Notes under the pieces: model-generated | What the model was told of the DNA's origin: nothing | Databases searched by the model: none | What the model saw: only the letters and a program-made list of their open reading frames with translations | Part shown: piece after piece, positions 24,400 through 64,000 of the stretch | Layout of the letters: every line of letters begins with the position of its first letter | How positions within the stretch are numbered: position 1 is the first letter of the stretch | From: Plumapathes pennacea | Taxonomy: Eukaryota > Cnidaria > Anthozoa > Antipatharia > Myriopathidae | NCBI GenBank assembly: GCA_964036295.1 | Contig: OZ038465.1 | Coordinates: forward strand, 17,940,167-18,004,166 | Length of the DNA: 64,000 bases | Direction of reading: 5' to 3' | Translations under genes and position numbers: made by a program

Positions 24400-24796
24400 C
24401 TTGACCCGACGTGACCCGCAGCAAAGCTGCCGATTCAAAATGCTATCTTGGAGACATTAAGAAACCGTGCAAATCTTGACCCTGCCTGGTTCCGACCATG
24501 TACTATTATCAACCAGACGAGCGGAATAAAATGATGGCTGGCAGGATGCCAACCGCCGCTTACAACTCCTCCTTCCTCACGAGCATGCGTGGGTGACGTC
24601 ATGGCGGCGGAATGTTAGATCATCCCGGTAAAAATAAACTGATTTGGCGCTCTTTTCACGTGATGTTTTGTGCTGTATCCCGTGAGAGGATACAGGTCTA
24701 AGCTTTATTTACATACACTCCTTGCCGGAAATATCTTATAGACTTTTCAATCTGCTGCCCTAAATACATTTGAAGAGAAAAATTGTGTCCTGATCT

Positions 24797-29148: not shown

Positions 29149-32100
29149 GTTGCGGCGCTTTAGGTACATATCCATCTGTTCACCTAATTGTTCAGAGAAA
29201 TCTGTAGCCAGCATCATCATCTCGCCTTTAGAATTACTCTGCGGAGATAGACAAAAACAAAGCGAGAGAGAATAAACAAATTGAGTCAGAAAGAACGAGA
29301 GACAAGCAAAGATAAAATCACAGAAAGAAAGAGAGAGAGAGTTGAGTTGTTTCTAGATTGTCTCCCCTGTTTCTTGTCTGCACGCTTGTCTCCTACCCGT
29401 ATTTCCATATTGTACTTTCGTTTTCTCACAGCAAGAATATCAAAATGTCAAGACTAATAACTAAATCTTATACTAAGAAAGCGAAGAACAAAAGTATACT
29501 GTAAGAACCAGCAAAGTTGTTCCTTGTCGCATATCTTACCTCAAAAAGCAAGTTGTGTCCCGACTGTTCGGCGTACATGGAATGCAGCCTGTATTGATTG
29601 TCTCGCACTATATCCAGCTTGTACCCCGTCAGTACATAACACGCCTCACGGAACTCTTGGATCTTCTTGCTGAACACCTGTCGAGGCCGTCGGGACTTTA
29701 TGATCTTTTTTCATAAATTGTCGTTTACGTTGTCCTGAGACATGGAATCTAGTCTACCGCGAAGTGTCACGCTATGTTTCGTTGCGTTGTGATATACTGC
29801 GCTGTGCTATGCTACGCTACACTGTTGGTGTGGTGCACTCCGATGGGTCAATAGACCATTTTACCACAACACACTAGTTTCTCGCACTCTGATTGGTCGA
29901 TTAACCGTGGTAAATAAAAGTCCAGACAACGATATGACGCTAGCTGACGCCAGCGTGTCACGCTTTGCAACGAAATACAACAAAACTTTCTTGTCTATTT
30001 CTAAATATTGTGGTAAAAAACAAATTTCCACTGGTTTGCCGTGGTGTGGACTCTTATTTACCACGATTTACGTCATCACATGGTCAAAATTTGTTGTGGA
30101 CTCACTCGGCGAAGCGCCTCGTGAGTCCACAACATTTTGACCATGTGATGACGTAAATCGTGGTAGATAAGAGTCCACACCACGGCAAACCAGTGGAAAT
30201 TTATTAATTTTCTCAAGGTTGCGCGCGCATCCAAGCTTGACGGGCCACAACCTTCGACATGAGAATTGTTTAGCGAGCACTCATGCGTGAACGTTGCAGA
30301 AAAGGGCTTTAAAACTCAAGATAGCCGTACGAACTCAAATAAGAGCGCAGCATGAAGCATTTACATCGAGGCCGAACACAGTCGACCGTGAAAGAAAGCT
30401 AAAAGTTGAATTTGAAAGTCTTGGCGCGTCAAGCTTGGATGCGCGCGCAACCTTGAGGGCCCTTGAAAAAATGGACTATTTACTATTCCACAACTAACGG
30501 TACAGACCGGCACATTCTTTTCTACCACATAATAAATATCTCATTAACCTCGTTTGCTTGGTCCGTACTCTAACTTATGGAACTCGTTTTCTCCCTCGCG
30601 TTTTAGCCCAAGCTCGAAAAAAAAAAAAAAAAAACGCTGCACACTAAAGATACCTGTACTCAAGTTTGTACACACCATAGTTATACCCACCTCTTTTAAT
30701 CGCTGATTTTTCAGTTCAGAGGACAACAACTGTGCCTTGACGTCTGCAAAACAAAGGGCAGCATTAAAGAAATCAGATCTGGGTGAGAGAAGGAGCGAGG
30801 AGAGGGAGAATAGAACCTGAGGGGAGTGGGGTTGGTAGTGGAATTGTCAATCAAAAGGCAATGAAATGCACACGCTTATTGTCCCACCTTCGACTTGCTT
30901 GGCCACACTGGGTTTGTTTTTGGCTGATTCTGCGCCGAGCTTCTCAAACGAGCCGTCTGCTGCGACTGTCGCTGTTGGACCAGTGGACTGGCCGCATCCG
31001 GACTGCTCTAACGCAAGGATTTTCTCTTTGAGAGTGTCGTTCTCTCTTCTCAATTTTTCCAGCTCCTCTGCTCTCTGCTGCATCGCCACGGCTGTTGGGT
31101 TCATCGAAAAATGCAGCACCTTGGTTTTGGTGGGGTCGTAATAGCCCTGCAAACACAGTATTTCAATTAACTCTTTCACGTCCAAGCTTAAAATGCGGAT
31201 TCTCTCAACGTTTTAAAAAGAAAATGTATGAATGATGCAGTGAGAACTGATAGCTTCATCAGCTTTCAACTGATCAAGGTATCAAAAACAATGTTCTCCT
31301 TACTGTATGACATATCTCTGGTGCAAAACTGAAAAGAAAATTGAAGTTGATCACTCTTGGGAGTGAAAGGATTTAGTGAGTGTGGATTAGCGGGGGTGTT
31401 TTGCTGTCTTGTGCAGAAAGGTTGCGTAGATTCTTCACCTGAATATGTCTCTGTTCTTTGTTCAGTTCGTACAAACTCAGCTGTTCTTGCAGTTTAGAGT
31501 TCTCTACCTTCAGCCTTTCGAGTTCAGATCTGAAACTAACAAAAATAAAAATGGCTGTTGTGTTCTCAACGGTTAGAATGTGGGCGACGTAAAAAGCTTA
31601 CTGATGGTTATGACAATGACGATCGTGAAGATAGTTATGGCATAAACAACAACAACAACAACAACAACACTTTATTTACACTTCGTTCAGATATGTAGTG
31701 ATGGTTGGTTATGGCAATGATGATGATAGTGATGGTGACAATTATGGTTATGGTGAAGGTTGCAGTGATAATGCTAACGTTAGTATTGATGTTGATAATG
31801 CTGATGCTACCGTACACCTCGACTACGTATCTGCTGCTCACCCCAGTCCACTGCTGTCCACGTGTTTCTCTTGCAGTTGTTGTTTCATGTAGTTCTTTAA
31901 GTTGCTGATTTCTGCTTCTAACTGCAATGACCAAGAAATTGGCTTTCAGAACAAGTTGCAGCACTTGCAATGTTTGCAGCAGCACTGCAAATATAGCAAA
32001 AAATTATTCGAGATGGGGTTAGACCTGAACAATTTTTAGCGCAACAACGTATCGTTACGAATCGTCGCAGCAAAAACAGCATTGAACCTTTAAAAGACTG

Positions 32101-35100
32101 CATCAGGCATGTACCGTTCTGCACTTGTGTTTTTCCTCGCTAGATTCCTCCTTTGCTTGATTCAGTTCCATCTAAAACATACACCACATTAGTATGAGAC
32201 CTAGAACACAAAATCTCACTATACACTCATCACTCAACTGATAAATATCAAAGAAGAAATACCTCCAAAGACTCGATGTGGTCATCACAAGACTTTAAAC
32301 TGTCCTCTGCCTAACAAGAAAATAACGATAAAGAGAAAATAATAAGGACTACTTAAAGAAACCAGCAAATCACCAATAGGCCATTTTCTGAAGGTTGCGC
32401 GCGCATCCAAGCTTGACTGGCCAAGACTTTCAAATTCAACTTTTAGCTTTCTTTCACGGTCGACTGTGTTCGGCCTCGATGTAAATGCTTCATGCTGCGC
32501 TCTTATTTGAGTTAGGACGGCTATCTTGAGTTTTAAAGCCGTTTTCTACAACGTTCACGACAGTCAAGCTTGGATGCGCGCGCAACCTTAACAAAATGGT
32601 CTATTCTCTCTGTGTAAATAAGGAATACTTTTCGCTGTCTTATTGACCTCTTTTAGCCTTGCTCTCAGTTGTGGATCGTAGTTAGCTGACCAGACATTAT
32701 CGTATGTACCCAGTATGCGTCGACAACCATCCCTCTCCTGGAAAACAAAGAGACAAGTAGTGAAAACCCACAATTTGTGAACTGGCTGAAGGAAGGTTGC
32801 CAGGAGTTCACATTTGGGCTAAGCAGCAATTTACAAAAACACGAAATGCACCTCACGAATAAAATTTTATGCCAGAATAAAATTATTTTTAAATCATTAT
32901 CTGGAGCTGTCAACCACGCCTCACAAAAAAGGTCTCCACGTCAGTAAAATATAACTTAAACTATAAATTGCTATTTAACTTACAGTATATTTCAACTAAA
33001 TTAGAAATACACAATGTGTGTTAACATAAGACAAAACTTTGAACTTACAGAGGTGACTAAGACCAAGCGCCTCTGCAGCCTCTGGGACAGGTCTTTGAGT
33101 TGAGAATTTGACTCCTGAAAAAGGGAAAACTTGGTTGTGCTCAAAAAATGTCCACTTGAACTCCACAGCTCAGCCAAAAACACAAACTACACCATAGTCT
33201 GGAGAACTTTTGTTGTTAATTTTTACGCTCACACTACACACCTTCAGCTTGGACAGTTCTTCCTTGGCTAAGGTTAATTCTTCTGACACGGTTTTATACG
33301 ATGCTTCATGGATTTTGGCACTATAGAGGAATGTATGAGAGTATAAAACAGCAGTAACTTAGATCATACGGTAAATCAACCTAAAAGTTGGTGTGGGAAA
33401 CTTGCTCCATCAAAGGACCGACACTCAAAACACCAGCTTAAACATATTTATTTAAGAGCATTTAGCTTTCCCACATCAACATTTTGTTAATTTACCACAG
33501 GTCTTATTTCAACGAAGTCTAACCTAGTTCTCACACTAGCATTCCATTGTAATATTTAAATCAGGCAGTTGCAGATGTTCAATCAAGGTAGAAGTTGCAG
33601 CCAAATAGGCCTTTTGCAACAATAGCATTAAGAAGATTTGAGGGAAAGTAGCTACTGAATGAAGACTTGAAGAAAAATTAAGAAGATTTGACGGAAAATG
33701 GTACTCAAAAAATGAATTCTCATGGTTAATTTCAGGTAATGTGAACTATTGTAAGTTACAAAAGGCCTGTTAGACAACAGAACAAAAAATTAGTATTCTC
33801 TGTTTGGGATTTATTCTCATGCTATATTCTTCAAATTGGCTGCATTCCCATGACGTGAAGGTTTCTATAATAAGCTCTTGTCAATATAATGTATGTTGGA
33901 CAACCAGACAATCCTAGTCAATGGTATAACACTATTACAAGGGACAGTTAATCACGGCTCTACCTTGACTTGAGCTCACTTTGCTGCTCCAACAGGACAA
34001 TTTGACTCTGCTGGAGTTTTGCCACTTCCTGTTTCAACTCAAGTGGTGACCTGAGGGAATGATGATTCACACATTTATTAGTTTTCAGAACAAACAATGG
34101 TCAGACTTCCTCTGAAAGCCCTGTGCCCAGTTTTTCAAAGCACAATTAGGCTAATCCTGGATTAGGTCTAAACTTTCATGTCATTTATATGCCTAAAAAT
34201 GTGAAGGTTTCATCAACAACAACTTTCTTTATGCGTTTTTAAGCTGGAACAAGCTTTTTAATCCATCTTTGAGCAAAAGTCTGCAGTTTATTGGCAGAGG
34301 GGACAAGAGAAAGAATTTTGTTAATCCTGGATTAGCTTAATCGGCTTTCGAAAAACCGGGCCCTGGTGAACAAGTTACCTTTCACCTGGAGATGAAGTGA
34401 CCCTGATTGTAATTATAATAGAAGCAAATATACAACTTATAGACTTTGTTAATTTGTGAAAACATCAGTTACAGAAGACAAACACTGCCCATCTTACATT
34501 AGCTTCTTATTTCCGTATAAGTCTTGAGATTCCCACTGTTGAACCTTTTTCTTTAATTGCTAAAAGTACAGAAAAACAATAGTATTAGTCAGATAGAATA
34601 TTACAAGATAGTCAGATTTCCAATCATAAAAGGACAGAATGGAAAATCACAGCACTTGGCCCCCTTACGCCCAAACAAGACTGACCATGAGGAAAAGTTG
34701 ACGATGATCTACAGTAGGCTTGGTACTGTAAACTGTAAATTCTGTCACTACTTGTATTTTATTTACAACCAACACATTGGAAGCACTGTACTGCTCTTTG
34801 ACTTTTCAACTCCCAAGTGTGATTATTTACTTCAATATTCTCTTACTAAGATATACCAGGTGCAGTACAGAGGGCTTGGATTTTGATACCTTGCTCAGTT
34901 GAAAGCTGAGCAAATTATCATTTCTCACTACATCACTCATACATTTTCTTCTTGAAAGGTTGAGAGAATCTGCATTTTGAGCTTGAGAGCCAAAGCATTA
35001 ATAAATTATCACAGCCACTGGCTCTTAACCCTCTCTTGTTTTACAGGATTCTCTCCCATCTGTTTTTCTAAGAATATTCTAGGAATTGTCTTCTTAAATG

Positions 35101-38100
35101 GTTGGGAGAGTTTGCACTTCTCACTACATCACTCATACATTTTCTTCTTGAAAGGTTGAGAGAATCTGCATTTTGAGCTTGAGAGCCAAAGCATTAATAA
35201 ATTATCACAGCCACTGGCTCTTAACCCTCTCTTGTTTTACAGGATTCTCTCCCATCTGTTTTTCCAAGAATATTCTAGGAATTGTCTTCTCAAATGGTTG
35301 TGAGAGTTTGCATTATCAGCTAAGCAGGAAAAGGGTCTCAAGTACACAGCACCTCATTCTCCATCTCCACTCTGCCCATCTCTCTGTTTCTTTGTTCACT
35401 TCTCTCCAGTTTTCCATTTAGACTTTCAATCTTCTCTTTTAGCAGCAGGTTGCTCTCATTGATCTCCCTGCAACAATTTGAATTGATTTTGTTACTAAGA
35501 AATTTTTAGAAATTCAGCAAAAATTTGGCCACACACTTGCTTTATTTGCCAAGTTCACTAATTCATTGACATCTGAGCCAAGTTCTGGCATTATACAACA
35601 CTTCAACAAATACTCATACTTGTGAAGAAAAATATTGTGCTTACCTGTAGTAATGGTTATCTTCTGCCAGTTTTAAGTTTTCTTTCTCCAACTCACGATA
35701 CTTTGTTAGCTGACTGTGCATAATCTTGGAAATCTCAGCAGTTTCATTGTGACAGCAAAGCTTTTGTTCCAATTCCTAGTACAAAATAATAGCAAAGAAC
35801 AAAACAATATTAGCCCCTGAGCAAGCAACCAAATGCCAAGTTCTCCAAACTGTATGATATATCTCTAGTGAAAAGCTGAAGGAGAACATTTTGAAGTTGA
35901 TCACTCTCAGAATTCAAACACTAGTACATGTACTTGTCACACAGATGCAGCCACCAAAAATGCAGTAGCTCTCACCGGGACTAGCATGCAAACAAACATT
36001 CAACTCAAATCACTGCACCTTCACTTTGTGTTCTGCTGTCCTTGTTCGAGCCCGGAATTCCTCCAGTTCTGGAAGGTGATTAGATGTTTCTAAGAGTTTC
36101 CTGATGTAGCAAACAACAGAAAGCAAGTTAGCAACTATCTGCAGGTCTTTCTATACTTCTAGGTATTCTCCCAACAATTTAAGAAGAAAATACAAACAAC
36201 ATGAAGTGAGAATTGAAATTCAATCAGTTTAACCTGAGCAAGCTATCAGTTGCCAAGTTTTTTTTCTGCTGTGTACATAATATACTGTATGTATCTATAG
36301 AGCTAGAAAAAACCAAAGTTGATTTCTCTCAGGGTAGAAGGGTAACCCAGTTTTGTTTTGTATAAGATTCTCCCAACCAGCTATGAACAAAATTTATTGA
36401 GTAGCATCAGGAGAATTCCTACTCTGACAAGCTTAAACCCAAGCAGAGATCAGCTACATTTTCTCCATACAGTTGACTGTGAGAGAAGTTTGCCGTTGAT
36501 CAACGTACCGTTTGGCATTTTTCAGTTGAGTGCCTGTTTCTTCCAGTTGGTTCTGCATCATGATCTTGTCTGCTTCATTTCTGTGAGGTTTTACACCAAA
36601 ACACATTCAGATTATGTATTTTGCAATGGCTCAACATTAGCTTTGTTTGTTATATAGATATCAATAAAATACCACGATTTCTCCAGTTCTAAAAACTGAT
36701 ATTTTCATTACATGCAATATATCTTTGCACGTGAAGGATAAAAATTATATGTTCACTGTGCAGGCGATTTTTGAAGACAGCAAGCTCTGACAGGAAATAA
36801 AGACTTTTAGAATGTATTTGTTTTGGATATTTCATCAATATCTATGTGTATAATAAACAGAGCGTTACATGGCCACTTGGAGATACAAATTTTATCTTCT
36901 CGTGTTGATAATATCTCTCTGTTATCAACACTCGAAGATAAAACTCATATCTCCGCACGGCCATGTAATATCTTCTATATCTCATACATTCACAGCTCAT
37001 GATGAAAGCCATGCCTGCTAATGTGATGCTACCAGACCTTTCCATTGCTATGTTTGCACCACCTGGACTAGTGAGTCAGGCTACAACTTGTCTTTGGATT
37101 AGCTGACAAATTAGTTTTCATCGCATACGTCACATCATCTTACCTTGCAACTGTATGCCTGAGTTCCATTAATTGCTGACTTGTCTCCTCCCTTACCTAA
37201 AAAAAAAGCATTGGTTTACATGTTGTAATGGTTCGTGATTAACGCACAATCCTTGCAGACCTGTGATTAGCACATGATCATCACGACATACAGTATGTTA
37301 GTCAGTTAGTGCACACATCCTACGGCACTCATGTTGTTGTTGTTTCGTTACTATCAAGTATTGCAATACTAGCATTAGAACCCTGCTGTCTCAAACTTAG
37401 TTATTTCCCTCTGGTAGCTACCACACTGCTAACTCGATTCCCTGCTATCTCAAACTGCTTCTCTCTTCCCTTAAAGGCTGGTTCACACAATAAAGCAAGT
37501 GCAGACGCAAGTGCAAGAGAATGAAAACTTTTCCATTCTCTTGCGCTTGCGTTTGCTTCACAAATTTTATTGTGTGAACCGGTCACTTGTGCTTGCGTTT
37601 GCTTTACTCGTGTGAACCAGCCTTAAGAGTTCAAGATAGCAGAGTTCTACTGTAAGGTCAACAATATTGATAATTTATAATATTATAATATGGCACAGAC
37701 GGTACATACAGTAGGTTCTGATTGCCCAATTTACAGCTCCATAAGTACAGTACAGACTGGTATATTCTCAAGAAGAATAGCGACCACTTAAAGCTGCACA
37801 GGTAAAACGCCTGTAGAATACTACACTAGATTCTTCATGTGATTCCACAGGTTTGTGTGTGATTCCTTGCACCTGAAGAAATAGCTTTTGCTCGCTTTAG
37901 CAGAGGAATCAGACAATGTAGCAGTAGCCCCTTTTGGGGATTAACACGTTTTCAGTCGTGTTTGATTCTTCTGGTCTCAAGGAATCAGACAGCAACACAT
38001 GAATCAGACGTTTGATTCTACTGGTCTGGCAGAAGTAAGTGAAGAATCTCATGTATATTCTACCGCCCTTTTGACCTGTGGCTGAACGAAGGGTGGTCGC

Positions 38101-38714
38101 TTATGTCAGAAGGTTCCACTGTATATAGTATATTTGTAGACGCCTCATATTCTCTCTTGCCAGACACTAACCTGGTCCAGTTCTGATGACATCTTTAGCT
38201 TCTCTCGTTGCAGGTTTTGCATCTTCAGTTCGGCTTTGTTTTTGTACTTCTCGTATTCCTTCTTGATGTCTCTCAGCTGTTCTTTAGCACTTTTTTCCTG
38301 CTCCACGACGTACTGTAAACTCTTATGCATATCCTCGTATTTCTCTTCCCGCCTCTGTACGTCAGCTTTGCTTTCTCTGGCCTCCTTCTCTAGCTCGATT
38401 CTGCTTCTTTTCCGTGATGTTTCAAGCGTGTTAATCTGGCTTTCTAAGTAGGCGATTTTGCTCCGACCTTTTATGATTTCTACGTCCTTCTCTCGCTCTC
38501 TGGATAGCTGGGGACTCTGAACCTTAGCTTTGGTGGCTGGTCGTGTCTCTTTCTGCAACCCGACGCTTGAGTAATCGTCAAAAGTCAGCCTTTCTCTTGG
38601 GCTTGCCATGGTTGAATGAGACAAAAATTCGCTAAATTCTCCCATGATTCGCACAACAGCTGTGCTATCGTCTGGAGTCCTTAATATATTCATGTTACTC
38701 TTGCTCTGATACAT
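29074..38714 (-). CDS. MAD1L1: Mitotic spindle assembly checkpoint protein MAD1
   Basis: Kinetochore protein that recruits and activates MAD2. Nineteen coding exons join in phase to 756 residues (human about 718): 38714-38172, 37196-37144, 36580-36509, 36100-36019, 35775-35645, 35467-35353, 34559-34498, 34050-33964, 33320-33242, 33114-33049, 32737-32648, 32310-32263, 32171-32115, 31921-31842, 31529-31439, 31146-30888, 30743-30691, 29677-29540 and 29238-29074. Almost all of it is coiled coil (for example RIELEKEARE). Exon 11 begins ERDGCRRILGTYDN. Exon 16 carries the MAD2-interaction motif KVLHFSMNP. Exons 17-18 carry ELKNQRLKEV, with the RLK motif used for BUB1 binding, then KKIQEFREACYVLTGYKLDI. 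The C terminus reads SIPAFLSSVTLELFSRQTQT. The ATG at 38714 is preceded by a splice-acceptor-like CTCCTCATTTAG, so a non-coding first exon probably lies upstream. An in-frame ATG is seven codons further in. Confidence 0.93.
30022..30202. mobile_element. Palindromic element in MAD1 intron
   Basis: A near-perfect palindrome with outer arm AAATTTCCACTGGTTTGCCG and centre near 30108-30114 (TCGGCGAAGCGCC). Lies between exons 17 and 18 of MAD1. Confidence 0.88.
30212..30457. mobile_element. MITE with GCGCGCGCATCCAAGC ends, copy 1
   Basis: Inverted ends CTCAAGGTTGCGCGCGCATC and its inverse. The interior shares AAGCATTTACATCGAGGCCG with the copy at 32376-32609. In a MAD1 intron. Confidence 0.85.
32376..32609. 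mobile_element. MITE with GCGCGCGCATCCAAGC ends, copy 2 (opposite orientation)
   Basis: Inverted ends AATAGGCCATTTTCTGAAGG-onward, again with the GCGCGCGCATCCAAGCTTGA core. The interior is the reverse complement of copy 1, so the two copies form an inverted pair 2 kb apart inside MAD1, with four coding exons between them. Confidence 0.85.
34923..35314. repeat. 196-bp tandem duplication in MAD1 intron
   Basis: Two units, 34923-35118 and 35119-35314, differ by only a few bases (start TCTCACTACATCACTCATAC). The unit contains sequence of the TTAA-MITE family (GAGCTTGAGAGCCAAAGC). It lies between the exons at 35467-35353 and 34559-34498. The low divergence marks a recent event. Confidence 0.93.
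36865..36968. mobile_element. Short palindromic element in MAD1 intron
   Basis: A palindrome with arms of about 45 bp (TTACATGGCCACTTGGAGAT outward) and a loop of about 10 bp near 36916. Confidence 0.75.
37374..37653. mobile_element. Pogo-like MITE with a nested TTAA MITE (37475-37622)
   Basis: The outer ends TAGAACCCTGCTGTCTC and GATAGCAGAGTTCTACTGTA are inverted. Nested inside is an element with ends AGGCTGGTTCACACAATA and GTGTGAACCAGCC, flanked by TTAA (37471-37474 and 37623-37626). The nesting order shows that the TTAA element inserted after the pogo-like one. Between MAD1 exons 1 and 2. Confidence 0.75.
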
Positions 38715-38854
38715 AGATGCGGCCTAAATGAGGAGAAAACGTGATCTACAGTATACTCAACTAAACTGGAAATGCCGCCATCTTGAATAATCGACGATTG
38801 AAAAGAACGGTGGGATACTATTGTCGTCCCTAGGCCGTCCGCGTGACACCGGGT

Positions 38855-44344: not shown

Positions 44345-44910
44345 AGTAACACGCCAGGGCGACAACCTAACACGCCAGGGCGACAACCAAACACGCCTAG
44401 GCGACAACCTAACACGCCAGGGCAACAACCTAACACGCCAGGGCGACAACCTAACACGCCAGGGCGACAACCTAACACGCCAGGGCGACAACCTTACACG
44501 CCAGGGCGACAACCTAACACGCCAGGGCGACAACCTAACACGCCAGGGCGACAACCAAACACGCCAGGGCGACAACCAAACACGCCAGGGCGACAACCAA
44601 ACACGCCAGGGCGACAACCAAACACGCCAGGGCGACAACCTAACACGCCAGGGCGACAACCTAACACGCCAGGGCGACAACCTAACACGCCAGGGCGACA
44701 ACCTAACACGCCAGGGCGACAACCTAACACGCCAGGGCGACAACCTAACACGCCAGGGCGACAACCAAACACGCCAGGGCGACAACCAAACACGCCAGGG
44801 CGACAACCTAACAAGCCAGGGCGACAACCTTACATGCCAGGGCGACAACAAAACACGCCAGGGCGACAACCAAACACGCCAGGGTGACAACCAAGCACGC
44901 CAGGATGACA
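44345..44910. repeat. 21-bp minisatellite A, about 27 copies
   Basis: The unit is ACGCCAGGGCGACAACCTAA plus C. Copies differ mainly at one position (CCTAAC or CCAAAC). A multiple-of-three period without stops leaves long frames open on both strands (plus strand TPGRQPN repeated, minus strand LSPWRVR repeated). Period and homogeneity indicate a satellite rather than a selected protein. Confidence 0.95.
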
Positions 44911-45236
44911 ACCAACTGCCAACTGGACAACCTGATACGCCCAGTGTGTATACATTACAAAGCCAAGGAAGCATCCTACACGGCATCGAAACGCAGAACG
45001 CAAAGGCGACAATCAGACACACCAGGGCGACAACCCCCTGCAGCTACCCAACACGCCTTACGACGGCAGGCAGGCACGAAATGGGGGAAGTAGGCACAAG
45101 ACGAGAGGCGGTCGCAGCTATGCGCCGAGGATCGAGACGGTAGGCCTGCCACATAATGACAGAACATATACCACAGCAAGACGTGCCATTCCTGCCCGCA
45201 GCAAGACAGCATAAAGGTTTCCAGAAGACAGGTTAT

Positions 45237-45826
45237 CAGTGCAAGACGGAAGGTGATCACTGCAAGACGGAAGGCGGTCGCAGCAAGACGGCAGGCGGTC
45301 GCAGCAAGACAGCAGGCGGTCGCAGCAAGACTGCAGGCGGTCGCAGCAAGACGGAAGGCGGTCGCAGCAAGATGGAAGGCGGTCGCGGCAAGACGGAAGG
45401 CGGTCGCAGCAAGACGGAAGGCGGTCGCGGCAAGACGGAAGGCGGTCGCAGCAAGACGGCAGACGGTCGCAGCAAGACGGAAGGCGGTCGCAGCAAGACG
45501 GCAGGCGGTCGCAGCAAGACGGCAGGCGGTCGCAGCAAGACGGAAGGCGGTCGCAGCAAGACGGCAGGCGGTTGCAGCAAGACGGAAGGCGGTCGCAGCA
45601 AGACGGAAGGCGGTCGCAGCAAGACGGCAGGCGGTCGCAGCAAGACGGAAGGCGGTCGCAGCAAGACGGCAGGCGGTCGCAGCAAGACGGCAGGCGGTCG
45701 CAGCAAGACGGAAGGCGGTCGCAGCAAGACGGCAGGCGGTCGCAGCAAGACGGCAGGCGGTCGCAGCAAGACGGAAGGCGGTCGCAGCAAGACGGAAGGC
45801 GGTCGCAGCAAGACGGAAGGTGGTTA
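45237..45826. repeat. 21-bp minisatellite B, about 28 copies
   Basis: The unit is GGTCGCAGCAAGACGGAAGG plus C, with the main variant GACGGCAGGC. All six reading frames are open across the array (for example GGRSKTE on plus, LPSCCDR on minus). A 330-bp spacer separates it from array A; it contains isolated near-units of both (ACCAGGGCGACAACCCC near 45023 and GAGAGGCGGTCGCAGC near 45102). Confidence 0.95.
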
Positions 45827-46551: not shown

Positions 46552-49500
46552 CTAAGCCAGGTGATGAGAGAGGCCAGCCAAAGCTGATGCAGGAGTTCTG
46601 ATGTAGAGCTGATAAGCACTGCTGGTCCACCTCCCCAGGGCTTGAATGAGGTGATCCGGCACTCCACTGCGTGCTCCGATGCGAAAGCTATGGCTAGAGA
46701 AGTTGCCTGGTACACCTGCAGCTGCCAGGATTTGACAAAGCCAGTTGGTGAGTAAGGTGCAAGTCAGAGGCCACCCGTCCTGCAGCAAGAACAAGGGGCC
46801 TGGGGCAATACCTCTGAGAGCTAGATAAGCCAACATGGCCTGAACAGCGCAAAGAGGTGTACCAAGGCCAATGTGAATAAAGCAGCCAACGCGGAACGGA
46901 TCAGTCTTGGACGCCTTAATCTTAACTTGCAAGCAGGAAGGGTTAGAGTTGGAGTTCACAGCAATATCTGATACCTCAAGGTGAATGGAGGACTGGAAAC
47001 TGGCGAGGTTGGGGACTGGAACTCTAAGGATCTCAAGAAGCCAAAGAAGGCGAGAGTGCAGGCAGCCCAGAACATGCAGTGGTCAGGAAGAATCAGATCG
47101 AGGGAGTTGGCAACAATCCACATAATGGAGTCAGTCACAGGTAAACGTTCGTTGGCAGGAGAGCCTTGTTGACGCTTGATGCTACGAACCACCCTGGAGA
47201 TGTAGACAGTTGGCTAGAGGATCGGGGAAGCCTTGTTCAATGTGTAGAGACCGTACAGCAGAAAGGTAGACCTTAATGGAGAAATGTTGGAGGGACTCGG
47301 CTAAGGAAGTTGCAAAAAGGCAGAGGGTCCACTCATCGGCTGGACAAGGAGAGCCACTGGTGTGAAGCCTGCCGGAATGAAGACAGAACTGGTGAAACCT
47401 GTCTTGGGCGGACGTATAAGTTTGGCGAGTAGAAGGGGCCAGACCTTCGTAAGAAAATTCCAGCACCGCTGCTCTAGTTGGGAGAAGTCAGATCCTTGAG
47501 AAGCTGATGCAGAATTGGAACTGGAAACGGGTGTGCCTCAGGAGCTAAATGCCGGAATTCCGGCCAATTAAAACGAGAAAGGGCATCAGCAATTGAGTTC
47601 CGCATGCCAGGAATGTGTCGGGCCATGAAGAAGTTGAAACAGGCTGAGGCCATAAGCAGACTACACATTAGATGCATCAGCTGGGGGACCTTGGAAGTCC
47701 TAGAGTTGAGGACCGACACGACAGCTGTGTTGTCAGAATGGAACAAAATGTTCCTCTTAGCCCACCTTGGGCCCCACAGATGCGCTGCAATAACCACCGG
47801 GAAGAGTTCCTTGTAGGCAATAAACTCGTGCCATTGGATGGGCAACCATGGACCAGAGAACCATTCTCCGCGGAAAAAGGCACCAAAGCCAAGGGAACTT
47901 GCTGTGTCAGAAGTGACCTCCAGATCTAAATCCGGGGTCAAGCCTGGATAGAGCCAGAAGCTGACGCCGTTCCCCGAAGAGAGAAATTGAACCCACCACT
48001 GGAGGTCAAGGTGGAACTCCCAGTTCAACCGGATAGGATGATCAGGTTACCAGAAGCAGCAGAGCAGGCCAATCATGCGACGCAGGAAGGTTCAGCCAGG
48101 CCAGACCACTTTGGCCACAAAATGGAGGTGGCCGATCAAGGATTCGAGTTACCATCTGTCACACCAGCAGCGAGGAACCCACGAGAAGAGTAAATCTTGA
48201 AGGGCAAGTAGCTTCTCAGCTGGTAGGCGAGCTATCTGGTTGACTGAGTCAAGTTCGATGCCCAAAACAACCATACAAGTTGTGGGTCTCACACACTTAG
48301 TGGGATGCAGTGGCAGGCCCAGCCGACGACAAACGTTTAAGGCAGTGTCGAGATTGTGAGCACACTGTAGAGAATTAGGAGGGCCCACGCTGATGAAATC
48401 ATCCAAGTAGTGAACGAGATCGGACACCACGTAGGATCCATTCCACTAAGTATGCTACTGAGTTGAAGATGAATGGTGCTGAAGGCCAAACGGGAGCATG
48501 AGATCGATGTAAAACTAGCCTTTCGATACTTCATTGGCCAGATAGGCATCGACGACGGCCGGATGTTGAAGGGCAGACGGCTTGTTACGTTTAGAGGAGC
48601 TAAGCGGAGAGGTTGCAAGGAAGCCCACCTTAAACCCATGCCTAAGCTCCTGGATTACGAAGGAAACTCGATTCTGGTCCGGGTGCTCACGCAGCTCCTG
48701 GGTGAAGAGGTCAGGGACGAGAGGGCTAACTAATTTGACTGGAGGAAGGGGAGGCCATGCTAGAAGGGGAAGTAAAAATGAATTGGCAACCAGAACACGC
48801 AAGCAGCAATGCAACCAAGCAACTCAAGCAAAACTTAATGGAACTAAGAAGCAACCAAGGCAACAGCAACAGCAAAACTAGTGACTAGCAAGAAAACAGA
48901 AAAGAATTAAAGTCCCTTCTTGGGATGCTTGGAGAGCTCCTTGGAGTCTGGGCCAGGCGACAAACCATGTTTGGCGTCAGGCATGATGTCCAGATCGGGC
49001 GAATCAAAACAATCCTTGGCACGATGTAAGCCAGAACAAGAACTGCATTTGTGGGCGAAGCGGCAGGAAGAATAAGGCGCAGAGCAACAACCACGGTTCC
49101 ATGACCTGCAGACAGCAAGCGACAAGTTGTTACCCCAAGCTTCGCTAAACTCCGCTAAGACGGGATACAGAACGGATCCAGGGCGAGGCACCCACTGAAT
49201 GGAAATTGAACAGCTGGACATCCATGCTTGACCAATCCTGCAGCTTCGTGGCGGCGGCATGCTGGCAAATGGCACAATCATAGGCCAACCAAACACGACC
49301 GGCAAATTGCCAGTAAGTACGGAGGATTAGAACCTTGTAGCTCGTTAAATCACGCCAGCGATGTTGGAAGTGAGAAAACAAGGACCAAGGAAAAAACTGA
49401 GAATGCTTCAATCCAAGACACAATGCCCTTGATGTGCCGGCATTGTCTCTTGGGAGTGGAGGTGAGAATGGCATGCCTATCAAACAGCAGTTGAGGCTTG

Positions 49501-55910: not shown

Positions 55911-58900
55911 TCAAACATACTCTGGCCTTCCACCTGCCATCTCTCTCGCTTTCAGCGTCAGACTAGAAACTGGTTGAATCTGAAGAAACGTAGGCTGTGC
56001 TGCTGACCTTGCTGTCTGTTCGCCTTTCTGCATATCAGCCATAGAAAGATTCACACGTGAACCTGTGTTACACTCAGTACTGGTGCTTGACAAGTCAAGC
56101 TGCCGTCGAATGTCCAGGGAGTTGTCTGTGGAGGACCATGAGTTACTTTTGGCATAGTCATAGGAGGGCTCTGTTCTGTGCTTTCTACCTCGTCGTCGCA
56201 CATGAACATCATAGCAACTTGTGGGTGGTGAGTCATCTGCCAGCAGGACTGCCTTGGAAAGCTGCAGAACAATCAGGCTGATCAATTTCAATTTTCTCTT
56301 CCTAGTCTCTGGTCATATCATATACAGTATGGAGAGTTTGGGTTTTGATACTGTAGTTTGCTCTGATGAAAGATGGTGGAACTGTTAATCACTCAAATAT
56401 TTTATCTCTGAAGTGGTTGGGAGAATTTGTATTTTTATGAGCTTGGGAGTGAAAGGATTAAGTGCTTCAGTACCTTCATGAATTTGCTGAGTTCCTTCTC
56501 CACTGCAAGGTTTTGGCAGGAGGCAGCAACCTGTAGAGGTGTCTGACCAAATCGATTGATGAGGTTTGCATCTGCAAACAAAGAGGCACCCAAATATTTT
56601 CAAATATTTTCTTTTAAATGAATATGAACATGCTACATAGCTATGCACATGTTTAAGAGATAGATTCCTGCTGTCTTGTCCATCTTGGGTCCAGACTATA
56701 AATTCTCCAAACACTACTCATACATTTTAGTCAAGAACATTTGGAATAATTCAGCCCAGATCTTGGGACTAAAAAGATGTTTTTCACATTGTATACCTGT
56801 TCCTTGTTTAAGCAGCAGGCTGACCACATCTGGTCTGTCACATGCCGCTGCCACATGCAGTGCTGTCTGTCCATCATAGTCACAGATATTCACATGACCT
56901 GACCACCTGAGAAGCCGCTTGAGTACCTTGGTGTCTCCGACCTTGACAGCTTCCGTTACAAGATTGGCAAGCTTACATTCATCCACGGTTCCTGCATGAG
57001 CTTTCAGGTACTCTGCTACATTGCGATGACCATTGACAATAGCATCTGTGAGTAAACAAACAAAAGGATAAACAACAAAAAAGAAGAAAGAAAGTAAGAA
57101 AGTGATAAAAATAGGTAGTTCAATTTCATCAGAGAGCAAATTCAAAGAAGTTCTCCATACTGTACACTATATATCTTTGGAGCTACTGAAAGAGATAATT
57201 GAAGTTCACCACTCTCAGGAATGAAATGGGTTGAGGGTTGGGATGATCACTGTGCGACATACCCAGCAAAGCTGTGAAACCATGCCTGTCCTTTGCATTG
57301 ATGTCAATTCCTGGCTGCAGCAAGAGGAATTTGATGACATCCAGATGTCCCTCAGCAGCACTCACATGCCTACAAACAAACAGACACATGAATGCTGAAA
57401 AGGCCATGGAGAATGACATAAAATGGCTCTGCCCAGTTCACTACACTGTAGCCAGTTAGATTAAGAGGTGAATTACTGTTCAGTGGTTATGCTGATGTAA
57501 TATGCGATCATGGAAACAGATTTTCAAACGAACACCTGCACGTCCTTGTGCATACATCTGGGACATTGACAAATAACACAAACCAGTTCACTGGCTGCAG
57601 AAGGGGTTGCATTCTGCAAGACCTGGTGATTTAGACCACACACAGCCAATAGGTAACTTGGCTTCAACTCCACTCTTATCACTACCTCCTGTTCTGAGGG
57701 GTCACTGCAGCAAGAGGTCAACAAGTAGAAGACTAACAAATTGTCATGCATAATTGGGGCATTTCCTGTGCATCTGTTGGCAATTTCCATCGAACCCTGC
57801 CCAACTCACAGTGGTGTTCTCCTGTTGAAGTCCTTGTAGCAAACTGTTGCTCCATTATGTACCATGTGACGTAGCATTTGCAGGTTTCCCTTGCTTGCGA
57901 CTTCACAGATTTCATATGTACTGTAGTGATGGGATGCTCGCCGTCCCCCAAGGCTCTCCAGGAGTTGATTCACTGCACGGTGCTCATGCATATCAGAGTA
58001 CTGTAAGATGACAAGATTGAGACTTCTGCATAATGTAAATTACAAAAATCCCATCTATCCACATCAATCTTATCTTATGACACCCACTGCTACATAAACT
58101 TGAATTTTATTTCAGAGGTGCACATTTTAGCCCAAAAAGCACTTACATTGAGCGGTGTGTTGCCCCAGGAGTCTACTGCATTCACATCAGCCCCATGATC
58201 AACCAAATACTGCACAACACCTCTGCTTCCAAGAGAAGCTGCAACGTGTAGTGCAGCGGTACCATCCACATTGGGAGCATTGACGTCTACAGCCAGGGAA
58301 GCCAGACGTTCCAGCTCATCCAAATCATGTCTCACTGATTCAAGTGAATGACACAGTAGTAATGATTATTACAGCTTATGGTGTGGATGATCTGCAGTTT
58401 GTTTTAGAGACAAACTTTATATTGTGTTGGTTTTCCTGAAGTACTAACTTCAAACACTTTGATCCCAAAGAGCTGGCTGCTTAAAGACAAGCTTCTCCTT
58501 TCGATACACAATCACCTAAAAAAAGCCATTCAGTATGGAGAAAATGACAGGTGATCTCTTGCTTGGGTTAGGCTGATCAGATGATCAATCCTCCTAACAC
58601 TGCTCATACATTTTGCTCAGGCCAGGTTAGGAGATTAAAAGTCTGGAGACTCAGTGTTTAAAGGGGTAAAGTGATAGAGACAATACTTAAACTTTTAACT
58701 CACTAACTGCACTGCACAGGAGATCTCCAGCTCCATCTTCAAACCAACTTGCCCCATGCCGCAGGAGATACTTCACAACACGGTCATGACCATGTTTAAT
58801 GGCTTCTGTTTGAAGAGAAGAAGGTTGTGGGGAATACAGGGTTAGATGTATGTGAACTACAGTACAACCCCACTATCTCAAACCTGGTTATCTCAAAATC

Positions 58901-61900
58901 CCTGCTATCTACAGAATCCTATTTCCTTTGAAAATGAACTAGGTAGAAATCGTCCTTGGTAAAACCGCGCTATCTCAAACTATATATCACTTCCCTTGAC
59001 AGTTCAAAATAGCAGGGTTCTATTGTATACCCATAAAACAAGAACTACATACCTAAAGAACAGAGAGAGAAGAAAAGGCAGGAAAGGTTTAACCCATCAC
59101 CTGACAGTGGCGTAGCATTCCAACGGTCTCTTGCATGGACATCTACACCAGGTGGCCGCAGCAGGAATTTCACACACTGTAGCTGATCCAGAGAGCAAGC
59201 CACATGCCTGCAATACATTTAAGGGGCAGTGTCATGAGATGTGCATGCATTTGGTTGAATCTTGAAGACATTAGGCAAATGTCACATTGAAGGACACTGC
59301 CCCATTAATGAAAGCACATTATTGTGGTCAAACAACCTTTCAATAACTTGTGAAGAAATACGTAATCTTACAGCAGTGTTTTTTTGTTCCAGTCCTGAAC
59401 ACCGAGGTGTAGGCTGTTGTTGGAGCTGATTTTTTCAAGTTCTTCGACATTTCCCTGCGACACAGCTTGAAACAGCTCTTGTCTCAAAGTGACCTGGTCT
59501 CTGGATGATAATCCTGTATTGGAAGATTCTTGTGCATCACAAGTCATGTCAATATCTGAACCAGAATTAAAGCCAACCTGGAAATGGAAAAGTTTGACAT
59601 GGTAACTTAACAACCCAGACACTTCTCTGAAGTGTGGACACCTCTATAAGGCGGACACCTCTCTAAAGCGGACACCTCTATGAGGCGGACACCTCTCTGA
59701 AGTGGACACCTATAAGGCGGACTGCATGCAGATTTGATCCTTACTGATTTTCATTTGTTTTTCTGTAACTGAACTCTCTCCAATTAATTAAGGTGGACAT
59801 TAAATGCTTAGTCCCGATGGTGTCTGCCTTGGAGAGAGTTCACTGTATTCATATTGTGAAGGCAAGCACAAATTAGAACTGAAGCTTGGGCAAGTGAGGG
59901 TGATGGTGTCACCATGCCGCAGTAAACAAACTTACTGTGAAACGTATAAACCAGATCAGTAAATATGTGCAGAGCACGGACCAGACAACTGTCACCAAGA
60001 CACCGAGAAGCTGTACCCCAATCTGTCTACCACCGGAGTAAAGTGACTCAGCACCATCACTGCTCACTCTTGGCTTGGCAAACAGGCCCGCTGGGAAGGA
60101 AAGACAACAATGAACAGAAAACTGAGGACTAGTAATATGATGGGCCCTCTTATCTGCCATCATACTGCAGTGTCAGTTTTTACCAATTTATTTCTATCAA
60201 TGACAAGAAGACTGGCAATGTTTTTAAATATTAAGGGGTCTTGCCATGGCAATTACGGTACTTATCCTGCTACTTAAACACAAATATAGTGTAAACACCA
60301 GAGGACCCACGTGTGTATAGACACAGCCCTTTGAAGCAGGACAGACAGAAAGAATGACATGATGGTGACATATCAAACTATGTTTACAACAAATCCTAAC
60401 CTGCAATACTCCCGATAATGCCAGGTATACCATGCACAAAAGTGACATCATGCTTGCTGTTACTGGTCCATACAGGTTGACGTCTCTTGACAATCCACAG
60501 AAGAAATGATGAGGTCACGCCTGCAAACATGCCGGTCAGAAAAGCTGCCCACATTTCTATGGAGCCAGGAGCACTGGTAACAGCTGCAACACAGCAAGAG
60601 ATTTGATCCTCATTAGAAAAAGGGTGTGCTATATGACTGTCCAGGGGTGGGGTTTACTGACAGAGGTATATGAAGTTCTATCTCTCTGTGAACTAATAAA
60701 AGACACCAACATGTCATGTTACATACCTACAACACCAGCTGTGAAGCCTGGTAAGATATCTGCAAATCGGCAATTTTTCTTCGTGATGTAAAGAAAGATC
60801 ACCCAGCACATGGCTGACGTGCATGCTGAGATGTGAGAGTTGAGTAGAGAAAGTGCCGTCGTGTTGTGCACCTTGAAACTTGAACCAATGTTGAAGCCAT
60901 ACCTAGAAAAATGATGTGATTATTATTTGAAATTTATTGTTATTTTTCTAGCATGTTTTTCCCTTTAGACCCTAGAAATATTTGGGCCCTATCTGACTCT
61001 CTTTTGACATGGGTAGCATGATAGGCACAGGCACACAATAATATGATAGGATAGGCACACAATAATATTCTAAATATATTCTAAATTATTTATAACTGGC
61101 ATTGCATCTAGACAGTTCCTTTATAAATGATGGGGCTGAAACAAACAACTTGGTTGTTTGACAAAAAGAAATGTCAGGAAGAAAGTCTACTTAACCAACA
61201 TACCATCCCAGGATAGTAAGGAGACCTCCTAGCAACAACATCGGGTTACCAGAAGTGTGTCCAACACAGTGACGACTAGATAAGTGGTGAGAAGCAGTGC
61301 TATCTACTTGAACGTGAGGTTTAAACACTGCAGTGAACACCAATGCAGAAGTACCTACAGAGACGAATAAATATGAATGTCTTAACTCTTGAACTTAACT
61401 GACCTCATATAAAGACATTCTGAGTGAGAACTGATTGGTCAATTTGCAATCAACTTTTGCTAAAGCAAGTTCTTAAGATATTACTCCGCTCCACCTAGGA
61501 GTTCAATAAGAATAGGATAAACTGAGAAAAATTGAATTGGTAACTTATTGCATGAAATTTTCATGACACCTTCATTTCACAAATTTTCTGTTGTATAATT
61601 TTCAAAAATTGCAAAATTAGGTGTCGCAAAAATCATGAAATTAACATGTTGCAAAAAATTTCACGTGATAAGGAATTTCAGGGTAAAACTCTACCTCCAT
61701 CAATTAAAGTCTAATTTACATACTACAGCATTGTTGAGTTGTTTTATGCTCTATGTTGTTGAAATACCTCTTGCATGATGTAAGTTGGACATGAGTCAAT
61801 ACTGACCTGCAGCAGCATGCACTGACAAACCACCAGCATCGTCCAATATCTGAAACTTATCTACCAACCAGCCACGCCCCCTGATCCAATGTGTTAAAGG

Positions 61901-62641
61901 ATAGTACACAAAGATTGGCCATGTGACATAAAGCACCTGGAAGTCAACCAAACTCATTCAGCTAAAACTCAAATTCAAACAGCAATCAAAACAAGAATCT
62001 CTCTCTGGATATTCCAGTCACTTACCACTGCTCCAAGCATGCTGATATGACCTGACCTAAGGAAGAGAAGAAACCATAAATTAAATAAACAATTTGGAAG
62101 AAAATTAATGGCAAAGAAAAGCATGCACAGCACTATGTCCTCACCTTCCCTCACCTTCCCTCCCCTCCCCTCCCCTCTGCCTCCTATTGCATATACACAA
62201 TCCCTCCCCACAACCAACCCCACACCCTCCCCCTCACCAGGGCTGGTGAATGGTACCTTGAAAATCAAGGGTCTTGGAAAGTTTTGGATCTCGGGTCTCG
62301 GGTTTTTTTTTTTTTTTTTTTTTTTTTTTGTTTCTTTCCATCTCAGAGTCTCAGAGAGGTTAAAGTCTCATTCTCAGATTTTTTAACAAGGGTCTCAGCA
62401 ATCTCAGATTTTACCATTTGCCACCCCTCTCACCCCTCTCACCCCTCCCCACCTACCTTGCAGTCGTCATCATCAGTGGGACCACAATGGCCAGCATCAT
62501 TTCGAAGCCACCAGTCAGCAGTTCAGGAGAAAGCGATGCAGAAGATGAGCAGTTTGACTGGGGAATACCCAGGAAAAAGGCATGGTCCAGGTTACCAATG
62601 AAACCCTAAAAATATCCATGGCTTTTAAGATCAAAAACCTT

Positions 62642-62672
<31 letters not shown>

Positions 62673-62899
62673 GGTCCTTCTTTATACATGACATGAAATA
62701 AAGTACTGATTATCACCATAAAGTTGTTGTGTATGACTTTTTTGATGCCCACCTTCAATGATGCACCAAATGAAAGGGAAAACCCTACAGAGTACCAGAG
62801 GATAGACCCCACAACAATGTTGACAACAGCCTGCACAAGCAGACCATCCGGGCACCGATGCCGCAGTGCACTGGCTTGGTATGCTGCAAATGCAATTCC
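55911..62899 (-). CDS. Ammonium transporter (Amt) fused to a C-terminal ankyrin-repeat domain; 5' end outside window
   Basis: A polytopic Amt/Mep channel with a long cytoplasmic tail. Seventeen exons: 62899-62753, 62605-62457, 62056-62026, 61936-61807, 61354-61204, 60903-60727, 60583-60401, 60090-59936 (Amt, about 374 residues); 59577-59372, 59207-59101, 58805-58704, 58334-58147, 58000-57810, 57369-57263, 57045-56797, 56571-56474 and 56261-55911 (tail, 532 residues). Amt signatures in order: GFIGNLDHAFFLGIP; LDDAGGLSVHAAAG (first pore His); SGNPMLLLGG; GWYGFNIGSS; VHGIPGIIGSIAAGLFA (second pore His); IGVQLLGVLVTVVWSV. The last membrane helix runs straight through a phase-0 intron into VGFNSGSDIDMTC and then about eight ankyrin repeats (for example DGTAALHVAASLGSRGVVQY). 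The final 116 residues are Ser/Thr-rich and end GGRPEYV. All junctions are GT-AG with matching phase, but exon 60903-60727 carries one extra base. The first transmembrane helix and the start codon lie beyond 62899, probably past the window edge. Confidence 0.88.
58860..59025. mobile_element. 166-bp pogo/Tigger-like MITE with TA target duplication
   Basis: Ends CAGTACAACCCCACTATCTC and, inverted, CAATAGAACCCTGCTATTTT; TA on both sides (58858-58859, 59026-59027). Same superfamily style as the 10230-10931 element. In an intron of the Amt-ankyrin gene. Confidence 0.8.
59622..59845. mobile_element. GGCGGACACCTCTCT-repeat transposon remnant
   Basis: Four to five iterations of GGCGGACACCTCT(C/A) at the left (59635-59720) and a right end that reads, inverted, CAGTGAACTCTCTCCAAGGC, followed by TA. 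Typical of pogo-like elements with sub-terminal repeats. It lies between the last Amt exon and the first ankyrin-tail exon. Confidence 0.65.
62130..62452. repeat. Low-complexity pyrimidine tract and T run in an Amt intron
   Basis: A CCCTCC-rich stretch (62130-62240), a T run of over 20 bases (about 62302-62329), repeated TCTCAGA motifs and a second CCCCTCTCA tract just 3' of the donor at 62456. A T run followed by a G run (about 62641-62671) lies in the next intron upstream. These are assembly-fragile sites. Confidence 0.8.
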
Positions 62900-62903
62900 C
62901 TGG

Positions 62904-63055
62904 AGAAAACATAATTGCACAGCAAAATAATTTTAAAACAGATGTTAAGTCCAGCCAAAAAGAAACCAAAAGAAAAAAGAAAAAAAAAAACGGGGTAATG
63001 GGGTGAGCGTATTCTCTCTAGCAGAGTGTAAATTCATTTGACAGTGAAAGCCGTA
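62904..63055. other. Intron of the Amt-ankyrin gene
   Basis: Sequence upstream of the first visible exon. It starts with a proper acceptor (TTTTCTCCAG on the minus strand). No earlier exon with a first transmembrane helix is seen up to 64000. Confidence 0.5.
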
Positions 63056-63897
63056 TTTTACAATAACACGTCAGTTTCTCGCTTTGTGATTGGCTAATTT
63101 TCATTATCAATAAGAGGACAGACACATAAAATCGAGTGCTGACGACAGTGATTTGGACGAAGAAGGTGAATTCAGCTTCAAATTTACCTCAGTTCTTGCA
63201 AAAGCGACATTCGGCATTTGAAGTAGAGAACCAGAAGTGTTCAGAGGCGAATTTCCTTGAGCTTTGTCTTGAAATTGTCGAGAAAACCGCAGCAGAAAAG
63301 CGTCTAGTTTCATTTCTTTCCAACTTCTTTGACAAAATTTTATTTTGAACGCGCGAAATGCTTACGTCAAGCTGTCACTTTTTGGCCAATGAAATGTCTT
63401 GAATTTCGACCTCGACCAATTAGAAAGCGGGAAAAGTTGTTGACAACATTTCGGTCAAATCGAACAAAATCCAGTTTTTTACAATAACACGTCAGTTTAT
63501 CGCTTTGTGATTGGCTAATTTTCATTATCAATAAGAGGACAGACACATAAAATCGAGTGCTGACGACAGTGATTTGGACGAAGAAGGTGAATTCAGCTTC
63601 AAATTTACCTCAGTTCTTGCAAAAGCGACATTCGGCATTTGAAGTAGAGAACCAGAAGTGTTCAGAGGCGAATTTCCTTGAGCTTTGTCTTGAAATTGTC
63701 GAGAAAACCGCAGCAGAAAAGCGTCTAGTTTCATTTCTTTCCAACTTCTTTGACAAAATTTTATTTTGCACGCGCAAAATGCTCACGTCAAGCTGTCACT
63801 TTTTGGCCAATGAAATGTCTTGAATTTCAACCTCGACCAATTAGAAAGCGGGAAAAGTTGTTGACAACATTTCGGTCAAATCGAACAAACTCCAGTT
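63056..63897. repeat. 421-bp tandem duplication, with inverted end at window edge
   Basis: Two copies (63056-63476 and 63477-63897) differ by only a handful of substitutions. Both start with TTTACAATAACACGTCAG. Beyond the second copy, sequence at 63940-64000 is the reverse complement of the copy start (ATGTGTCTGTCCTCTTATTG), so the block has inverted ends like a transposon. An identical 68-codon frame occurs in both copies on the minus strand; it has no recognised function. Confidence 0.9.
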
Positions 63898-64000
63898 TTC
63901 TTGCGTGTTTTCCCCGTGTCGTCGCTTGAGTTTTGTTATTGTAAAAAACAAATTGACGTCAGTTTTTTATGTGTCTGTCCTCTTATTGATCATGAAACGC

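Follow-up and report, generated by a model that had tools for sequence, protein, structure and literature searches.

The locus analyzed here raises the question whether an ammonium transporter (Amt) and an ankyrin-repeat tail are encoded by one and the same animal gene and, if so, what such a tail would do for the channel. The window, i.e. the whole stretch of DNA that was analyzed (64,000 nucleotides of contig OZ038465.1 from Plumapathes pennacea), carries on its minus strand, between positions 62899 and 55911, 17 exons that upon splicing yield a 906-codon open frame ending in TGA. The features of this gene are as follows:

62753..62899, minus strand: first visible exon (exon 1), covering the end of TM1 and TM2; from spliced frame and homology
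62457..62605, minus strand: exon 2, with L87 (AmtB F107 position) at 62494-62492; codon by arithmetic
62026..62056, minus strand: exon 3, 31 nt; from spliced frame
61807..61936, minus strand: exon 4, with R128 (AmtB W148) at 61882-61880, D141 (D160) and H149 (H168) at 61819-61817; codons by arithmetic
61204..61354, minus strand: exon 5; from spliced frame
60727..60902, minus strand: exon 6, with F206 (F215) and S210 (S219); from spliced frame and alignment
60401..60583, minus strand: exon 7, with H312 (H318) at 60434-60432; codon by arithmetic
59936..60090, minus strand: exon 8, last Amt helix, phase 0 end, donor ACA/GTAAGT; from spliced frame and site scores
59578..59935, minus strand: intron 8, Amt/ankyrin junction, 358 bp, with a 17-bp tandem repeat
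59372..59577, minus strand: exon 9, junction exon with a 30-residue linker, then the first ankyrin residues; ATG 59547 in frame
59101..59207, minus strand: exon 10, 107 nt, phase 2 start, phase 1 end
58704..58805, minus strand: exon 11; from spliced frame
58147..58334, minus strand: exon 12; from spliced frame
57810..58000, minus strand: exon 13; from spliced frame
57263..57369, minus strand: exon 14, 107 nt, phases as exon 10
56797..57045, minus strand: exon 15; from spliced frame
56474..56571, minus strand: exon 16; from spliced frame
55911..56261, minus strand: exon 17, 116-residue end (26 S/T, 16 K/R) and stop; protein ends in PEYV

The gene and its junction

All 16 introns of this model are of the GT-AG type, span 89-452 bp and agree in phase. 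The exon boundaries were placed by eye so as to preserve homology and frame, hence the phase agreement is partly by construction, and the independent check on the boundaries comes from splice-site scores. The Amt exons and both pore histidines (H149 and H312) named in the original prediction are present in these 17 exons. The C-terminal end had been described as Ser/Thr-rich; the enrichment is modest (26 of 116 residues). The terminal PEYV is presumably a fit to the class III PDZ ligand motif. The visible Amt sequence starts at the end of TM1, so at least one upstream exon, encoding TM1, must lie beyond the window's edge. Searching the open frames of the window with a profile gave no Amt match in 62933-64000. 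A 421-bp direct duplication (63056-63899, 98% matches) adjoins the first visible Amt exon upstream.

The junction between the two parts (59936/59577) is in phase 0, and exon 9 is preceded by a TTTCCAG/GTT acceptor. Scored with a matrix built from the gene's other 15 introns, the junction donor is the best of 55 GT and the acceptor the best of 57 AG in the interval from the first base of exon 8 to the last base of exon 9. Over the window's entire minus strand, equal or higher scores are reached by 106 of 4051 GT and 21 of 3965 AG, counts that include the junction sites themselves and the gene's own sites. The expected GT-AG junction in phase 0 and without a stop is therefore borne out by the best-scoring donor and acceptor and by the 906-codon open frame. 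The claim that the ankyrin side has no start codon proved wrong, since codon 11 of exon 9 is an in-frame ATG (59547); an ankyrin-only product is hence possible. Similarity of exon 9 to the C-terminal region of Amts was also considered but dismissed as proof of the fusion: exon 9 gains 12 bits against a profile built from 80 prokaryotic Amts, a gain equalled by 62 of 1000 shuffled versions of it and by 35 of 1000 other pieces of the tail. Since this similarity is not significant, the case for the join is built on splicing and reading frame rather than on homology across the junction.

Could the two parts be adjacent genes, an Amt gene that terminates within or close to intron 8 and an ankyrin gene whose start codon is ATG 59547, or could the assembly have joined them wrongly within the intron 8 repeat? 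The in-frame ATG, the presence of the tandem repeat and the insignificant Amt similarity of exon 9 (matched by the 62 and 35 controls) speak for this. We consider it very unlikely, because the region's top donor and top acceptor are in matching phase, the window's open frames outside the gene give no Amt profile match better than E 2.6, intron 8 lies inside the length range of the gene's introns, and read-through beyond exon 8 reaches a stop after eight codons. The lack of AATAAA or ATTAAA in intron 8 was discarded as evidence, since it says little when the same signals are equally absent from the 1011 bp after the gene's stop; of the variant poly(A) hexamers, one occurs in intron 8 and four in these 1011 bp. 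The single fused gene that had been proposed is well supported by the open frame, the Pfam domains and the splice-site scores, i.e. by the sequence alone, and its Amt and ankyrin parts would presumably be transcribed as one mRNA.

The 17-bp tandem repeat occupies 59636-59722, and its unit, with at most one mismatch allowed, matches nowhere else in the window. Elsewhere, a Pfam match was obtained for six of ten other open frames picked from the window. These are, all on the minus strand, an ubiquitin carboxyl-terminal hydrolase (18.2-18.7 and 23.6-24.5 kb, with 18.8-19.4 kb below the cut-off; span 18241-24456), a MAD mitotic checkpoint protein (30.8-31.2 kb, with 38148-38723 below the cut-off; span 30850-38723) and a reverse-transcriptase-like (RVT_3) match at 47477-48046, beside which the open frame 46555-47082 has no Pfam match. 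Such gene content would fit an animal. Two 21-bp tandem arrays with different units (44347-44913 and 45241-45824; 27 and 27.8 copies) leave several frames open and thus produce long repetitive ORFs. At 586-2401 there are four occurrences of a 30-bp doublet, whose starts are spaced by 642, 640 and 475 bp, suggesting that it is part of a longer repeated unit.

The Amt part and its recruitment site

Membership of the Amt part in the Amt/Mep/Rh superfamily is indicated by a match to Pfam Ammonium_transp (PF00909) over residues 4-376 (178.9 bits versus a cut-off of 23.2, E 1.7e-52), by the twin histidines and by the residue at the D160 position. Proteins of the Amt family have 11 helices and are trimeric. 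The top PDB matches are 2b2f, which we take to be Af-Amt1, and AmtB chains, with 28% identity to each. For comparison of residues we used what we take to be the AmtB numbering, matched to the printed alignment. The pore histidines H149 (H168) and H312 (H318) are kept, as are D141 (D160), F206 (F215) and S210 (S219). AmtB and Af-Amt1 are thus of the same family and share the twin-His pore, but they possess an intact S1 site and a short C-terminal region, and lack an ankyrin tail.

According to PMC10433425, the S1 site of AmtB comprises F107, W148 and S219, AmtB is active with F107A while F215 is required, and a Rh protein is likewise devoid of most of the S1 site. Here only one of the three recruitment residues is retained (S210), F107 being replaced by L87 and W148 by R128, i.e. 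the S1 site of an AmtB-type scavenger is not found. In 80 prokaryotic Amt loci, the best 80 of at least 582 confirmed stretches, the F107 position is F in all 80 and the W148 position is W in 77 and F in three; D160, F215 and H318 never vary, the H168 position is H in 76 and the S219 position S in 74. The patterns used to find candidates sat around D160 and F215, not F107 or W148, and the counts at D160 and F215 are biased because of this. The Amt part differs at 37 of the 79 columns conserved at 90% or more in this set, which is entirely prokaryotic; L87 and R128 may therefore be usual in the gene's own clade and need not be peculiar to it. With two recruitment residues altered, the Amt part may not conduct ammonium. 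Exon 9 shows no canonical C-terminal motif of Amt proteins that could be identified confidently.

Architecture and kinship of the ankyrin tail

After the Amt domain the tail carries Pfam ankyrin families. Instead of the approximately eight repeats counted earlier, our reading of the alignment gives about 12, arranged in four tandem modules of approximately 99 residues with three repeats each (introns lie inside the spans):

58732..59487, minus strand: module M1, residues 405-503, exons 9-11
57920..58731, minus strand: module M2, residues 504-602, exons 11-13
56969..57919, minus strand: module M3, residues 603-700, exons 13-15
56474..56968, minus strand: module M4, residues 701-790, exons 15-16

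Pairwise comparison gave scores of 162 for M1-M3 and 115 for M2-M4, with 84-101 for the remaining four pairs. In addition, two introns of M1 recur in M3 at identical alignment columns and in identical phases (2 and then 1); they bracket exons 10 and 14, each 107 nt long. From the likeness of M1 to M3 and of M2 to M4, together with the common introns, the tail most likely arose by duplication of a two-module block.

The kinship of these modules was assessed by direct alignment. M1M2 reaches a score of 249 with SKOR (60 identities in 154), compared with 171 for a designed ankyrin and no more than 145 for any 200-aa window of ankyrin-1; for M3M4 the corresponding values are 232, 172 and 208. Among the references tried M1 is closest to glutaminase (133, 30 identities in 84 columns, versus at most 89 for ankyrin-1), while M3 scores 144 with SKOR, 131 with ankyrin-1 and 128 with glutaminase, and M4 122, 116 and 83, respectively, which leaves M4 ambiguous. 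The tail thus shows the tandem three-repeat units of a SKOR/GORK-type domain and is nearer to it clearly for M1M2 and slightly for M3M4, as judged against ankyrin-1 and one designed ankyrin only. In a PDB search with the whole tail, GORK and SKOR chains are within the best 60 of 475 matches (3.3e-31 to 1.4e-29), outranked by designed ankyrins and ankyrin-1; whole-chain scores sum all repeats of a chain. Glutaminase is not among these best 60, and with single modules as queries glutaminase, SKOR and GORK are all missing from the best 60 of 412 matches (M1) and the best 60 of 431 (M3). The tail may be described as a six-repeat ankyrin domain, akin to those of SKOR/GORK and to the repeats of glutaminase, that is present twice in tandem. 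In the whole protein Pfam gives Amt and ankyrin families only: no K+ channel pore, no histidine kinase domain of the Ks-Amt5 type and no match to a spectrin-binding family were found.

Possible roles of the tail

Published work places the C-terminus of AmtB in the cytoplasm (PMC10433425) and describes the Amt C-terminus as contacting the neighboring subunit and thereby regulating transport (PMC5764959). Its replacement by a doubled ankyrin domain would most simply imply oligomeric control. According to PMC12742848 the six repeats of GORK form two tandem three-repeat units, and ankyrin dimerization autoinhibits the channel; according to PMC10912226 the C-terminal repeats seem to reduce the activity of GLS2 and KGA. 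SKOR/GORK resemble our protein in being cation channels whose C-terminus bears an ankyrin domain built from two three-repeat units, but are tetrameric K+ channels with one six-repeat block rather than two. GLS/GLS2 (PDB 5u0i, 5u0k) make ammonia and have a C-terminal three-repeat module resembling M1, but are soluble enzymes with a single module.

By analogy, we tentatively prefer a reading that we regard as possible, if somewhat short of an even chance: a divergent Amt whose C-terminal switch has been replaced by an oligomerizing, probably inhibitory ankyrin cap. The doubled tail would substitute for the C-terminal trans-activation region that Amts usually have; in the presumed trimer the cytoplasmic tails would associate between subunits and keep the channel restrained, until a partner or modification acts as a releasing factor. 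Inhibition by the tail is carried over from the other ankyrin-tailed proteins and may or may not hold here. The spliceable fused frame, the domains, the SKOR/glutaminase kinship and the lack of a clear Amt C-terminal motif favor the cap, as does Ks-Amt5, where a signaling domain is attached at this end of the Amt (PMC5764959). Against it stand the single-module PDB searches, the higher rank of designed ankyrins and ankyrin-1 in the whole-tail search and the near-equal M3M4 scores (SKOR 232, ankyrin-1 208), the fact that SKOR/GORK tails sit on a tetramer while a trimer cannot pair its tails evenly, and the two altered recruitment residues, which make ammonium conduction doubtful. The earlier suggestion that the tail gates, reads or anchors the channel holds best for gating or reading, which fit repeats of the SKOR/GORK-glutaminase type, and somewhat less for plain anchoring. 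For the proposed link to nitrogen-exchanging symbionts the window offers no support.

A non-transporting Amt that binds ammonium and signals to partners via the ankyrin tail, as Ks-Amt5 does via its histidine kinase, is rather unlikely in our estimate. Ks-Amt5 likewise combines an Amt with an extra cytoplasmic C-terminal domain and senses ammonium despite lost transport, but it is bacterial, has a kinase in place of ankyrin and, according to PMC5764959, retains the selectivity-filter W and the Phe gate at its S1 sites, so that the loss of W and F is not the mark of a sensor. The two changed S1 residues (L87 for F107, R128 for W148) and the 37 deviating conserved columns would suit a transceptor; on the other hand H149, H312, D141, F206 and S210 are retained, AmtB is unharmed by F107A (PMC10433425), and the S1 changes, seen against prokaryotic Amts, may be usual in the clade. 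A specifically animal transceptor, whose altered recruitment site would serve to sense ammonium instead of scavenging it and which would report via a doubled ankyrin domain of the SKOR/glutaminase type, is more doubtful still; the literature searched yielded no description of an animal Amt transceptor of such kind. We know of no well-characterized Amt-based ammonium sensor in animals.

Alternatively, the tail may merely fix the channel to cytoskeletal or membrane partners, as a built-in version of the Rh glycoprotein/ankyrin-G pairing; this role, too, we hold to be rather unlikely. Ankyrin repeats usually bind proteins, and M3M4 is almost as near to ankyrin-1 as to SKOR; yet ankyrin-1 is a far poorer match than SKOR for M1M2 and than glutaminase for M1, and no spectrin-binding family is matched. 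According to PMC9467607, targeting, stability and activity of RhBG reportedly need ankyrin-G bound at its C-terminal tail, although a table of this source marks the interaction as not fully understood. RhBG, an ammonium channel reported to depend on an ankyrin-repeat protein for its activity, shows that ankyrin repeats can govern such a channel, but two separate proteins are involved, the channel is Rh rather than Amt, and the partner is ankyrin-G.

Ankyrin repeats are common domain partners. Ordinary domain shuffling that left a tail without particular function, or a fusion already present in protein databases, is most improbable: Amt modules fused to other domains were known before Ks-Amt5 (PMC5764959), but the nine ankyrin-side exons are open, with intact splice sites and recognizable repeats, which suggests selection.

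Titles and abstract openings of the papers listed revealed no Amt-ankyrin protein, which is no proof of absence in print; the word "ankyrin" is absent from PMC10433425, and the excerpted PMC4169000 describes an asparaginase with five ankyrin repeats and a separate Amt, for which ankyrin is unmentioned there. In viral contigs, seven pattern matches to the first 575 residues of the fusion and 11 to the Amt part were found, none confirmed as a relative. One of the 80 prokaryotic loci extends more than 80 residues past the last helix, and rare fusions may be missed since the set holds the best 80 of at least 582 stretches. This is a Rhodococcus Amt (L046) with a 142-residue extension, free of ankyrin by eye and perhaps, as a guess, a PII-like domain. 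Ankyrin matches occur in 157 of 294 genomes of one phylum and are uninformative on fusion. Among the PDB matches, 6eu6 (titled Ammonium transporter) is presumably Ks-Amt5, and the "Ammonium transporter" chains 8qj3/8qpf (644-661 aa), which we take to be a cyclase fusion, are like our protein longer than a canonical Amt and match its Amt part weakly (1.1e-11).

As read from the sequence, the single-gene model is well supported; its unusual architecture varies two known kinds of protein, the C-terminally extended Amt and the ankyrin-tailed channel. The covalent joining of Amt and ankyrin parallels the vertebrates' pairing of separate Rh and ankyrin-G proteins. If the proposed cap is real, it would allow a direct test of whether ankyrin modules of this kind act generally as switches in the handling of cations and nitrogen, and an ankyrin-restrained Amt would be an unusual animal route for ammonium control or sensing.
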